Source: an uncultured Coriobacteriaceae bacterium
Lineage (GTDB): Bacteria > Actinomycetota > Coriobacteriia > Coriobacteriales > Atopobiaceae
Assembly (NCBI GenBank): GCA_902778135.1
Contig: CACYWP010000002.1
Location: forward strand, 1 to 64,000
Length of the DNA: 64,000 nt
Reading direction: 5' to 3'
Shown: piece by piece, positions 50,410 through 54,962 of the stretch
Layout: each line of letters starts with the position of its first letter
How positions within the stretch are numbered: position 1 is the stretch's first letter
Translations under genes and position numbers: made by a program
Notes under the pieces: model-generated
The model's input: only the letters and a program-made list of their open reading frames with translations
What the model was told of the DNA's origin: nothing
The model's database searches: none

Positions 50410-51114
50410 CTAGACGCGAACCATTCGGTACCCGACGCCCACATGCGTCTGGATGTAGCGCGGGCGCGAGGGGTTCTCCTCGATTTTCTTGCGCAGGGTG
50501 CCCATGAAGACGCGCAGCGACGCGAGGTCGCCGTCCTGCGAGGTGCCCCACACCTCGTGCAGGATGTACTGATGGGTCAGCACGCGGTCGATGTTGTGGG
50601 CCAGCAGGCACAGCAGCTTGTACTCCATGGGCGTGAGGTGCAGCTCCCTGCCCTCGAGGGCGACCGTCCCTGCCGCGAAGTCGACGACCAGGTCGCCGTT
50701 GACGAAGGTGGACTGCTGTGGTGCCGCGTCCTCTGCCATGTAGCCGAGATGCCGCTCCGTCGTGCGCAGGCGTGCCAGCAGCTCGCCCACCGAGAAGGGC
50801 TTGGACAGGTAGTCGTCGGCGCCGGCGTCGAGGGCCTCGATCTTGTCGGCGTCCTCTGCGCGTGCGGACAGCACGATGATGGGCATCGTCGACCAGGTGC
50901 GGATGCGCCTGATGACGTCGACGCCGTCCATGTCGGGCAGGCCCAGGTCGAGCAGGACGATGTCGGGGTCGCTGGTGGCTGCGGAGGCGATGGCCGCATT
51001 GCCCGTCGCCGCGGTGAGGTGCTGGTATCCGCGCGACTCCAGGGCCGTGGACACGAGGTTGCGCACGGCGGGGTCGTCCTCGACGACGAGGATCGTGTAG
51101 GACTTGTCAGACAT
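50410..51114 (-). CDS. KdpE-like OmpR-family response regulator
   Basis: 234 aa from ATG 51114. Receiver domain with acidic pair (VVEDDPAV) and phospho-acceptor Asp56 (IVLLDLGLPDMDG), followed by a winged-helix DNA-binding domain (LTPMEYKLLCLLAHN, VFMGTLRKKIEENPSRPRYI). Closest in pattern to KdpE. The start overlaps the kinase gene. No kdpABC genes are near; the divergent kup gene and the CATAAAG repeats before it are the obvious target. Confidence 0.88.
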   Translation of the reverse strand: MSDKSYTILVVEDDPAVRNLVSTALESRGYQHLTAATGNAAIASAATSDPDIVLLDLGLPDMDGVDVIRRIRTWSTMPIIVLSARAEDADKIEALDAGADDYLSKPFSVGELLARLRTTERHLGYMAEDAAPQQSTFVNGDLVVDFAAGTVALEGRELHLTPMEYKLLCLLAHNIDRVLTHQYILHEVWGTSQDGDLASLRVFMGTLRKKIEENPSRPRYIQTHVGVGYRMVRV

Positions 51115-52249
51115 GCTCGTTGACCTCCTCGGCCGGAAGGGTGAACGCGAAGCGCGCGCCATGCGGGTCGACATCCTCCAAGTATATGGTGCCACCATGG
51201 GCCTGCACGATCGAGCGGCACAGCGACAGGCCCAGTCCCATGCTGCGGCCCGAATCGCCCGATCCGCTGCGTCCGGTGTAGAAGGGCTCGAACACCTGGT
51301 CCTTGTCCTCGTCGGCGACCCCCGGGCCATCGTCGGCTACGGAGACGCACACGCGGTCGCCCGTGCGCCATGACGAGATGGTGATGGTGGAGCCCTCGGG
51401 GGTATGGGCTATGGCGTTGTTGACGAGGTTGACGATGACCTGAACGATGACCTGCGGGTCCATGCGCGCCAGCAGCAGCTCTCCCGTGGGCTCGACCACG
51501 ATGCTGTGGTGACAGGCCTCGCGGCTGACGTGGCGCATGGCCTCCTCGATGACGTCGTCCACCAGCTCGGGGCCCAGCGTCAGGGTCACGTTCCCGTCCT
51601 CCAGGCGCGTGATGGCCAGCAGGTTCTCGACGACCGTCCTCAGCCAGGTGGCGTCATCATAGATGTCCTGCACCAGCTTGCGCTGGGTCGGGGGAGGCAG
51701 CAGCGCGTCCTCGTCCAGCAGCATGTCGGCGTTGCCGGTGATGGAGGTCAGGGGAGTGCGCAGGTCGTGGGACACCGAACGCAGCAGGTTTGCGCGCAGC
51801 TGCTCCCGCTGGGCGATCATCGAGGCCTCCATGGACTGGCCGAGCGAGCGGCGCAGGCTCTTGACCAGATAGCTGGAGAGCAGGGCGAACAGGAACATCG
51901 CCGCGATCGTGGCCGCATAGTCCGGCCCGTCGATCTTCAGAGACAGGCGGGGCTGGATGAGGAAGAAGTTGTAGGAGAGGATCGAGACGACTGACGCTGC
52001 CAGGCTGTAGCTCTGTCCGACGGTGAGGATGGCCGTCACGAGGACGCCCAGCACGTAGATGATGACAATGGTCGCGTCGGAGAATCCCAGCGCGTCAACG
52101 GCGATGGCAATGGCCGTGGAGACCGCCTGGCAGACCAACATGAGCAGGACGTTGGTGGCAAAGCGTGCATTCTGGGTGCTGCTGACCAGCGATGTCAGTG
52201 GGTCGAGAACCACGTCGTTAGAAGGGCTTGACACCTCATCCTCCACCAT
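51107..52249 (-). CDS. KdpD-like sensor kinase lacking the N-terminal KdpD/Usp domains
   Basis: About 380 aa from the ATG at 52249 (other starts possible). Four closely spaced membrane helices of the DUF4118 type (ATNVLLMLVCQAVSTAIAI ... FFLIQPRLSLKI) are followed by dimerisation helix SVSHDLRTPLTSITGNADML with the phospho-His, and HATPase motifs NLVNNAIAHTPEG, DDGPGVADED and GLGLSLCRSI. Classical KdpD has an additional 400-residue N-terminal part, absent here. Likely senses K+ or osmotic state and controls the divergent potassium transporter. Confidence 0.85.
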   Translation of the reverse strand: MVEDEVSSPSNDVVLDPLTSLVSSTQNARFATNVLLMLVCQAVSTAIAIAVDALGFSDATIVIIYVLGVLVTAILTVGQSYSLAASVVSILSYNFFLIQPRLSLKIDGPDYAATIAAMFLFALLSSYLVKSLRRSLGQSMEASMIAQREQLRANLLRSVSHDLRTPLTSITGNADMLLDEDALLPPPTQRKLVQDIYDDATWLRTVVENLLAITRLEDGNVTLTLGPELVDDVIEEAMRHVSREACHHSIVVEPTGELLLARMDPQVIVQVIVNLVNNAIAHTPEGSTITISSWRTGDRVCVSVADDGPGVADEDKDQVFEPFYTGRSGSGDSGRSMGLGLSLCRSIVQAHGGTIYLEDVDPHGARFAFTLPAEEVNEHV

Positions 52250-52742
52250 GCCGCGCCTGTCGTGACGCACCGGACGAAATCGGACGAAGGAGAGTATCGC
52301 ACAAACGGGCATGGCGAACGGAGCGGTGCCCACCATCCTCGGATGGTAGTTGTGTCGCTCGCGAGGAGGAGGTCCGAATCGTCGGCATCCATGGAGCCAT
52401 CGGTGCGGGTGGGATGCGGTTCGTCATCGCGTGTCGCAGCAGCCGTGCCACCTCCCTCTCCGTGCGACCTTCCGGCACTATTCGGTTGGTAGACCGCTTT
52501 TGCGCCATGGGTGACATAAAGGGGGGATACGTCTCATCCAACTGCCATGAAGATGGGATAAAATAGCAGGGTAGCGGCTTTGCGGCCGTTGCAGCCATCC
52601 CTAAATCATGCATAAAGGGGACATAAAGCAGACATAAAGAGCTTACCCTCAGGCAGCAAGGGGGTGCGCGAAAGCCGCTCCCGTGATAGATTCCACGTTC
52701 ATAGCCGACGTCATGCGCCGGTGCTCAGTCGATTGGAGAGTC
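52250..52742. other. Divergent control region of kinase and kup
   Basis: About 490 bp without a gene. It contains the CATAAAG repeats described separately and a possible -10 TAAAAT at 52558. No c-di-AMP (ydaO-type) riboswitch pattern was recognised. A short plus-strand frame (52228-52566) overlaps the kinase 5' end and is not called. Confidence 0.55.
52515..52639 (+). promoter_or_regulatory. 11-bp-phased CATAAAG direct repeats before kup
   Basis: CATAAAG occurs at 52611, 52622 and 52633, exactly 11 bp apart, and once more at 52515. Tandem half-sites spaced 11 bp apart are the usual binding pattern of OmpR/PhoB/KdpE-type regulators. The array lies about 105-130 bp before the kup start codon, on the side facing the response-regulator operon. 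Confidence 0.65.
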
Positions 52743-54962
52743 ATGAACAGTGTCTCTACGACGCCTACGCCAAAGAAGCGTAGGCGTAATACCGGCATCC
52801 CCCTCAGCGCTGGGATGATCCTGGTCACGTTGGGCGTCGTGTATGGTGACATTGGCACCTCGCCCATGTACACCCTCAAGGCCATCATGAGTGGCAACGG
52901 GGGCCTCTTCACCATGTCCCCCGAGGTGGTCACGGGTGCTCTGTCGCTCATCATATGGACGATGACGCTCATCACCACGGTCAAGTACGTGCTCATCGCC
53001 ATGAAGGCGGACAACCACAACGAGGGCGGCATCTTCGCCCTGTACAGCCTCGTCAGGCGTTGCGGCCGTTGGCTCATCGTGCCCGCCATGGTCGGTGGCG
53101 CCGCCCTGCTGGCCGACGGCATCCTCACGCCCGCGGTGACGGTCACCTCCGCCATCGAAGGCTTGCGCACCATCGATGCCGTGCACCGCATCATCGGCGA
53201 CAGCCAGAGCATCGTGGTGCTCATCGTCATCGCCATCCTCTGCGGCCTGTTCGTGGTCCAGCGCGCCGGCACCTCGACGATCGGCAAGGGCTTCGGCCCC
53301 ATCATGACACTGTGGTTCTCGTTCCTGGCGGCCACCGGCTTCGTGGGCATCCTCAAGTACCCGGGCGTTCTGGCCGCCCTCAACCCCGTGCGCGGCCTTG
53401 CCTTCCTCTTCAGCAAGAGGCTCAACAACGCCGGCATCATGGTGCTGGGCAACGTCTTCCTGTGTACGACGGGCGCGGAGGCCCTCTACTCCGACATGGG
53501 TCACGTCGGCAAGGCGAACATCTATGTCAGCTGGCCCTTCGTCAAGGCGGCCCTGATCATCAACTACCTCGGCCAGGGCGCCTGGATCGTGGCCAACAAC
53601 ACCGACTCGACGCTGGCCGCCGTTCCCGACCTCAACCCGTTCTTCCAGATGCTGCCCGAGAAGCTGCGCATCTTCGCCGTCGTGCTGTCCGCGTTCGCGG
53701 CGATCATCGCGTCCCAGGCGCTCATCACCGGGTCGTTCTCCATCATCTCCGAGGCCATCCGCCTGGACCTGATGCCGCACATGAAGATCAACTACCCCTC
53801 CGAGAACAAGGGCCAGCTCTACATCCCGCTGGTCAACAACATCCTCTGGGCGGGTTGCATCGGCGTCGTGCTGCTGTTCCGCAGCTCCGAGCACATGGAG
53901 GCCGCCTACGGCCTGGCCATCACGGTCACCATGCTCATGACGACGCTGCTGCTCTACACCTACCTGTCCCAGGTCCGTCAGCGTGGTCCGCTGGCACTGC
54001 TGTTCCTCGTCCCGTTCGTGGCCATCGAGGCGATGTTCTTCGTCTCGAGCCTGACCAAGTTCTTCCACGGCGGCTACGTGACGGTGCTGCTGGCCTTCTC
54101 CATCTTCATGGTCATGTACATCTGGCGTCGCGGCACGGCCATCGAGCGCACCCAGAGCGTCTACCTGTCGGTGCACGAGTACCTCAACCAGCTGTTCACC
54201 CTGCGCAACGATGACGAGCTGCCCTACGTGGCCGACAACCTGGTCTTCCTGACCAACGACTCGTCGCTCGAGCGCCTGGACCGCGACATCCTGTACTCCA
54301 TCCTCAACAAGCGTCCGAAGCGCGCCCGCGCCTACTGGTTCCTGAACGTCCAGGTGACCGACGAGCCCTACACCCACGAGTTCTCGGTCAACGACTTCGG
54401 CACCAACTTCGTGTTCAAGGTGCAGCTGCGCCTGGGCTTCCGCGTCAACCAGCGCGTGAACGAGTACCTGTACCAGATCGTCGAGACCATGGTCAACCAG
54501 GGGCGCCTGGCACCCCAGCATCGCCGCTACTCCATCTACCGCACCTCGGGTGACGTGGGCGACTTCCGCTTCTGCATGATTCGCAAGATGCCCTCCGCAT
54601 CGAACGACATCTCCGAGGGCGACCGCGGCGTCCTGAACGCGAAGTACGCCATCAGGCGTGCCTGCGGCACCCCGGTGGAGTGGTACGGCCTGGAGAACTC
54701 CTCGGTCATCATCGAGTACGTGCCGCTGTTCGCGAGGACGAAGAAGCAGCACAAGTTGGCGTACGTGGAGCTGCCCCAGAGCGTCATCGACCACAACGCC
54801 AGTGCGATGGCGGAGGAGGACGAGGACATCTTCTCCACCATGATGCGCGAGGCCCACGCGTTCGAGGCCTCTGCGGTCGACCGTGACGTCATCGGTGGCC
54901 ACACGGCGAGCTTCCGACCGGTGACCGTCTCCGAGGAGGATGACGGGGAGGAGGAAGGGTAG
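52743..54962 (+). CDS. kup: Kup-type potassium uptake protein
   Basis: 739 aa from ATG 52743 behind TTGGAGAG. The N-terminal motif MILVTLGVVYGDIGTSPMYT is the hallmark of Kup; about twelve membrane helices follow (for example ADGILTPAVTVTSAIEGL), then a large C-terminal cytoplasmic domain. It takes up K+ with H+. Divergent from the KdpD/KdpE-like pair that probably controls it. A strong hairpin at 55004-55038 follows. Confidence 0.95.
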   Translation: MNSVSTTPTPKKRRRNTGIPLSAGMILVTLGVVYGDIGTSPMYTLKAIMSGNGGLFTMSPEVVTGALSLIIWTMTLITTVKYVLIAMKADNHNEGGIFALYSLVRRCGRWLIVPAMVGGAALLADGILTPAVTVTSAIEGLRTIDAVHRIIGDSQSIVVLIVIAILCGLFVVQRAGTSTIGKGFGPIMTLWFSFLAATGFVGILKYPGVLAALNPVRGLAFLFSKRLNNAGIMVLGNVFLCTTGAEALYSDMGHVGKANIYVSWPFVKAALIINYLGQGAWIVANNTDSTLAAVPDLNPFFQMLPEKLRIFAVVLSAFAAIIASQALITGSFSIISEAIRLDLMPHMKINYPSENKGQLYIPLVNNILWAGCIGVVLLFRSSEHMEAAYGLAITVTMLMTTLLLYTYLSQVRQRGPLALLFLVPFVAIEAMFFVSSLTKFFHGGYVTVLLAFSIFMVMYIWRRGTAIERTQSVYLSVHEYLNQLFTLRNDDELPYVADNLVFLTNDSSLERLDRDILYSILNKRPKRARAYWFLNVQVTDEPYTHEFSVNDFGTNFVFKVQLRLGFRVNQRVNEYLYQIVETMVNQGRLAPQHRRYSIYRTSGDVGDFRFCMIRKMPSASNDISEGDRGVLNAKYAIRRACGTPVEWYGLENSSVIIEYVPLFARTKKQHKLAYVELPQSVIDHNASAMAEEDEDIFSTMMREAHAFEASAVDRDVIGGHTASFRPVTVSEEDDGEEEG

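Follow-up and report, generated by a model that had tools for sequence, protein, structure and literature searches.

The window analysed here is a stretch of 64,000 nucleotides. Within it, a gene for a KUP-family potassium transporter (kup) is transcribed divergently from the genes of a sensor kinase and a response regulator, and CATAAAG repeats lie between the kinase gene and kup. The features of this region are as follows.

50410 to 51114, minus strand: KdpE-like response regulator of the OmpR/PhoB family (PF00072 and PF00486); the first 8 bases of the gene are shared with the end of the kinase gene
51107 to 52234, minus strand: KdpD-like minimal sensor kinase, 375 aa from a Shine-Dalgarno-preceded GTG (SD-GTG), with DUF4118 membrane domain, HisKA and HATPase
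52276 to 52446, minus strand: decayed remnant of a 56-aa small ORF with a single transmembrane segment; ATG now ACG, frameshift, stop lost
52515 to 52563, plus strand: putative distal operator, one 11-bp pair and a second at a distance of 31 bp
52600 to 52639, plus strand: putative proximal KdpE-type operator, CCTAAAT at 52600 and CATAAAG at 52611, 52622 and 52633, in exact 11-bp phase
52684 to 52692, plus strand: putative kup promoter, extended -10 element TGATAGATT without a recognisable -35
52743 to 54962, plus strand: kup, KUP-family K+ transporter, 739 aa (PF02705, PF22776)

The earlier note had named the kinase-regulator pair and kup from the letters, and domain searches bore this out (HisKA, HATPase and DUF4118 in the kinase, Response_reg and Trans_reg_C in the regulator, K_trans in the transporter). 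The kup product scored 497 bits against PF02705 (gathering score 24.8), 47 bits against PF22776 and 363 bits against TIGR00794, the last being under the cut-off of 539.6, and kup is present in one copy in the genome. The kinase is about 375-409 aa long depending on its start. The longest ORF starts at 52336; this start was abandoned in favour of the conserved SD-GTG at 52234, and an SD-GTG or SD-TTG stands at the equivalent place in 7 genomes. Riboswitch control of kup was considered and set aside, as no part of the window scored at or above the gathering threshold of an Rfam family.

The best NCBIfam match of the regulator was KdpE (NF007820) and its top PDB match was KdpE 4kny, with the E. 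coli KdpE entries 4kny and 4kfc among the closest solved structures. Against the KdpE equivalog it scored 230.5 bits, short of the cut-off of 325. Given that a regulator encoded beside kdpFABC in a related genome (G028) scored merely 220.4 bits, this cut-off does not separate here, and the label "KdpE-like" was therefore adopted. For the kinase, the best NCBIfam match was KdpD (172 bits vs a cut-off of 1123, over residues 167-406), and the protein carries the DUF4118, HisKA and HATPase domains of KdpD. The N-terminal KdpD domain (PF02702), which the earlier note had found wanting in this kinase, was absent from the whole genome. So was KdpA, which extends to the genome the lack of kdpFABC that had been remarked near the pair and leaves the regulator with no kdpFABC to regulate. 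A full-length KdpD or a kdpFABC operon elsewhere in the genome was looked for and not found. Tests for PF02702 and kdpFABC were negative and the NCBIfam cut-offs were not reached, so the system was not filed as KdpD/KdpE proper.

A motif scan of the window placed CATAAAG at 52515, 52611, 52622 and 52633, exactly where the earlier note had read it. Counting both strands, the window holds 6 copies, a count attained in 0 of 100 shuffles (1.39 expected), and the two remaining copies are single ones elsewhere. There are two zero-mismatch dimers with 11-bp spacing in the window, and both belong to the kup upstream region. Three CATAAAG copies had been described as an 11-bp-phased array; the phasing holds and the size does not, as the in-phase CCTAAAT at 52600 had been overlooked. 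Likewise, the copy at 52515 is a genuine site and not a lone one. It pairs with a degenerate half-site at 52526 and belongs with a second pair (CATGAAG at 52546 and GATAAAA at 52557) to the distal set, the positions of which recur in an alignment of six same-genus relatives, with certain half-sites degenerate. In an ungapped comparison of 8 same-genus genomes anchored on the last repeat, the 28 proximal half-site columns were 97% identical on average vs 48% in 72 other columns. Across the 3.17-Mb, 50-contig genome, the dimer at ≤2 mismatches was found at 4 places: three make up the kup-upstream array, and the remaining one, C14:64088, coincides in part with the 5' end of a TrkH/KtrB-type gene.

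Relatives were compared in a 60-genome set and a 140-genome family set, both of which include the genome of the window. The nearest relatives with named records were Coriobacteriaceae/Atopobiaceae MAGs, which would be of rumen and gut origin, as the record names imply. A DUF4118 kinase adjoins kup in 10 of the 60 genomes (G000, G001, G002, G004, G011, G012, G014, G015, G016 and G018), and in all ten the 11-bp dimer precedes kup (the G001 copy with one mismatch), so the check on conservation that the earlier note had proposed came out in its favour. Upstream regions were compared for the dimer at 30 of 42 kup places and six more (L115-L120) were read later; L121 gave no start motif, and the other kup places lay outside the regions read. 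Among the 20 other kup promoters read, the dimer was found at one, that of G008, a genome which keeps the regulator and has lost only the kinase. The association between dimer and adjacent kinase gave a Fisher p of 3.7e-7, the genomes being related.

The exact pattern CATAAAG-N4-CATAAAG was found 18 times, in 13 of the 140 family genomes, and a reversed-pattern control gave 0 in the same 140. Seventeen of these dimers stand before kup and one (G027) before a P-type ATPase gene adjoining a KdpE-like regulator gene; all 18 are thus at kup or a regulator-linked ATPase rather than at the many unrelated promoters that would have spoken against the earlier note. A wide regulon of single boxes was considered and rejected. 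At ≤1 mismatch, single boxes were found at 39 places in the 60 genomes, and the 14 not tied to K+ uptake are at chance level, given that the reversed-pattern control gives 11.

In E. coli, KdpE binds the half-sites TTTATA and TTTACA, separated by a 5-bp gap and with TTTA essential, and requires R193, R200 and T215 (PMC3264566). CATAAAG reads CTTTATG on the other strand, with the TTTA core and the period of this published half-site, into which the OmpR/PhoB-type half-sites proposed in the earlier note fit well. The putative array agrees with the KdpE operator in sequence and spacing (two half-sites, TTTA core, 11-bp period), and the regulator of the window has R193, R200 and T215 and a wing without arginine. 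In a reading of the alignment these three residues were kept in 55 of the 55 regulator rows covering the region; position 193 is D in RegX3 and N in MtrA, unlike the Arg193 of the KdpE type. The recognition helix LASLRVFMGTLRKKI and the wing YIQTHVGVGYR are near-invariant among kup-, ATPase- and kdp-linked regulators. The likeness to E. coli KdpD/KdpE lies in an OmpR/PhoB-type regulator, AT-rich half-sites with an 11-bp period and a TTTA core, and the residues R193, R200 and T215. The differences are that the presumed target here is kup in a genome without kdpA, that the kinase is without the N-terminal domain of E. coli KdpD, and that the proximal array has four consecutive half-sites, in reversed orientation relative to the transporter, where the E. 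coli kdpFABC operator has two.

Such wiring could not be assumed from homology, because the KdpE of Sinorhizobium fredii, which likewise governs K+ uptake, bound kdpFABC and failed to bind the kup promoter in the EMSA experiments described in PMC9239096. The domains of KdpD are known to be modular, with the histidine-kinase parts on a separate chain from the N-terminal part in some cases (PMC11018627); the target discussed for these split or short proteins is still KdpFABC, and no kup-linked case appears in the parts of that paper covered. At the level of titles and abstracts, the literature searched contained no report of KdpE acting directly on kup, and its one KdpE match for Coriobacteria was, going by title and abstract, a soda-lake metagenome survey.

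Regulators of this kind were matched 50 times in 49 of the 140 genomes. By our own tally, 17 neighbour kup, 28 a P-type ATPase gene, 3 kdpFABC (G028, G071 and G123) and 2 none of these, and the complete ATPase-linked loci also carry TrkA-like genes. Eleven kup arrays, with 38 half-sites in all, were the sole basis of a weight matrix, which was applied to 40 other loci. A promoter counted as positive if no box anywhere in its 6-16-kb locus scored higher than one in the 320 bp preceding the transporter gene; L175 and L197, where the pair has none of the three transporter kinds alongside, were excluded. In this held-out test 37 of 44 promoters were positive vs about 1.2 expected, kdpFABC promoters included, the loci being related and hence not independent samples. 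Four of the 7 failing promoters were second-ranked boxes in two-kup loci; in L161 and L162 the best box stands before the kinase gene instead of the transporter gene, and in L096 it lies just outside the tested 320 bp.

Among 36 distinct kdp/ATPase operators, up to 18 have another pair 31-33 bp away from the best one, where shuffling gave a mean of about 0.02 or less at each distance; this is also the geometry of the distal kup set. The loci linked to kdpFABC or to ATPase-TrkA genes within the family thus share with the window the regulator family, the recognition helix, the kind of box and the 31-33 bp geometry; they differ in the transporter and, in the three loci examined for this, in a longer kinase (998 aa in G028, 578 and 607 aa in two ATPase-linked loci, vs about 375-409). 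A kindred box before kdpFABC and ATPase-TrkA genes, in genera with close-kin regulators, supports the rewiring that the earlier note had proposed. Given that its orientation relative to the divergent kinase gene matches that of kdp/ATPase promoters, the distal set is probably the operator of the kinase operon.

A maximum-likelihood tree of the regulators omits G018 (regulator cut at a contig end), G117 (decayed receiver), RegX3 and MtrA. All 17 kup-linked regulators group together in a single clade (support 100/95), with two ATPase-linked regulators as neighbours. The four target classes require three changes on this tree, which is the minimum. The single clade points to one move to kup as the probable history, accompanied by loss of kdpFABC and the KdpD input domain; the deep order is unsure and the order of the targets unsettled owing to the long branches of E. 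coli, G123, G103, G053 and G054. From kdpFABC through ATPase to kup linkage the kinases become shorter: the G028 kinase frame has 998 aa with PF02702, DUF4118 and a long stretch before HisKA, the two ATPase-linked kinases examined (578 and 607 aa) are without PF02702, and in the kup-linked kinase DUF4118 immediately precedes HisKA. As a separate observation, the kdpFABC-kdpDE unit of G028 (L193) lies beside genes for a P-type ATPase and TrkA, an arrangement that is plausible as an intermediate between kdpFABC linkage and ATPase linkage.

Two genomes have gone further. No close kinase was found in the G008 and G117 genomes, where the best matches are 29% identical and cover the catalytic part only (G008 being 83% complete). 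In the G008 regulator (L105, 3457-4179, minus strand) Gly stands in place of the phospho-acceptor and one acidic residue is missing, and the G117 regulator (L178, 4799-5311, minus strand) is a 170-aa frame with a damaged receiver. Both retain the recognition helix and the kup box despite this decay; in G008 the distal set is gone along with the kinase.

We infer from these comparisons that kup is controlled by the KdpE-like regulator, and that a two-component system derived from KdpDE has been retargeted from kdpFABC to kup, a reading to which we give a probability of about 0.8. Low K+ (or turgor) would lead the kinase to phosphorylate the regulator, and two regulator dimers would then occupy the four proximal half-sites, which span about -99 to -60 relative to a start presumed near 52699. 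The bound dimers would recruit RNA polymerase to the extended -10 promoter of kup, so that Kup would replace KdpFABC as the inducible importer, and the distal set would drive the kinase operon (autoregulation). An extended -10 resembling TGATAGATT sits 43-45 bp downstream of the proximal array in 8 of 8 core genomes, and the best -35 candidate in these genomes matches 2-3 of 6 positions. Activation is the direction suggested by the position of the box and the missing -35, with the reverse possible.

In that reverse case, dimers bound at the array would keep the kup promoter off until K+ drops. A negative effect of KdpE on kdpFABC has been described in S. aureus (PMC5401905), and boxes downstream of or over the -10 of second kup genes make repression plausible elsewhere; at the first kup, however, the array lies entirely upstream of a core promoter without a -35, which is the usual layout for activation, and repression there is unlikely. 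It is quite improbable that the array is an operator of the divergent kinase-regulator operon only, with kup a mere neighbour. Autoregulation of this kind fits the distal set, which is oriented to the kinase gene like the kdp/ATPase operators and has their 31-bp geometry, but not the constant distance of the proximal array from the kup -10, nor the persistence of the kup-proximal box in G008 and G117 without a close kinase (in G008 also without the distal set), nor the two-kup loci L168, L171, L174 and L176, in which a box precedes each kup (the second of L168 being weak).

We consider it very improbable that the array serves a different OmpR/PhoB-family regulator, such as a relative of PhoB, PhoP or MtrA. 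The direct-repeat format is indeed family-wide (PMC3264566), and a PhoP abstract gives 7-bp motifs with a 4-bp spacer, yet at ≤2 mismatches the genome has no box outside K+ transport loci, the boxes track the KdpE-like gene across genera, and a near-invariant recognition helix and wing with the KdpE-type Arg193 are common to the kup, ATPase and kdp linkages. Chance repeats in an AT-richer intergenic stretch can practically be dismissed: the motif is short and two further single copies occur in the window, but the repeats are phased, conserved in relatives and almost absent elsewhere.

KdpDE is the textbook sensor of K+ limitation and is discussed almost always together with kdpFABC, and Kup is usually considered a constitutive, low-affinity importer. 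Retargeting of a KdpDE-like system to kup is, as far as genome comparison goes, well supported; it suggests that these bacteria of the gut and rumen may use Kup as their inducible importer. One regulator and its predicted operator can be traced within a single bacterial family through the targets kdpFABC, an ATPase-TrkA unit and kup, with the input domain lost along the way and the kinase as well in two genomes. The evolution of transcription-factor rewiring becomes testable in one well-bounded set.

Second kup genes show a different box layout. The second kup of G004 has its box immediately after a TGATAGATT -10. Those of G015 and G002 have a weaker box, of about 8-9 bits, which is preceded by a -10 with a good -35 (TTGACC, 16-bp spacer), and that of G011 has a box partly covering the presumed start region. 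G104, G106 and G112 have two-kup loci, in which boxes stand after a presumed -10 of one kup gene and before the other kup gene; the boxes of G112 are likewise weak (about 8-9 bits). The repressor-like layout was seen at L115, L116, L117, L118, L168, L171 and L176; its resemblance to repression suggests a possible switch between two importers. More tentatively, the regulator might act in both directions, activating the first kup and repressing the second, and might govern kup independently of phosphorylation in G008 and G117; we hold this combination to be somewhat doubtful. On this combined reading, the family of loci would record a stepwise loss of two-component input with DNA contact kept.

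The small ORF before the kinase gene is intact in six relatives, where it lies between the array and the kinase gene (L109:3629-3799, L110:3891-4061, L111:3620-3790, L112:2975-3145, L113:3277-3447 and L114:3876-4046). These copies encode 56 aa with a single transmembrane segment, are free of indels and are preceded by a Shine-Dalgarno-like sequence. Their pN/pS of 0.59-0.91 indicates purifying selection that is weak at best, and searches of the six copies gave no Pfam family and one chance-level NCBIfam match. In the window, the tail of the small ORF runs in frame into the kinase ORF because the stop is lost.

Regulation of the TrkH/KtrB-type gene was also considered (L004:1501-1518, equivalent to C14:64088; L204). 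G000 and G004 have the box and G002 a weak form of it; it is absent in G015, G006, G014 and G003, and the anchor motif was not found in 6 other loci. Such regulation is not claimed because the box is not conserved in most relatives. Upstream of the same gene (L205-L211), an ACG follows AAGGAG at the expected start in G000, G002, G004, G006, G014 and G015, and G003 apparently has GTG at the equivalent place. A conserved ACG start codon of the TrkH-type gene is therefore possible.
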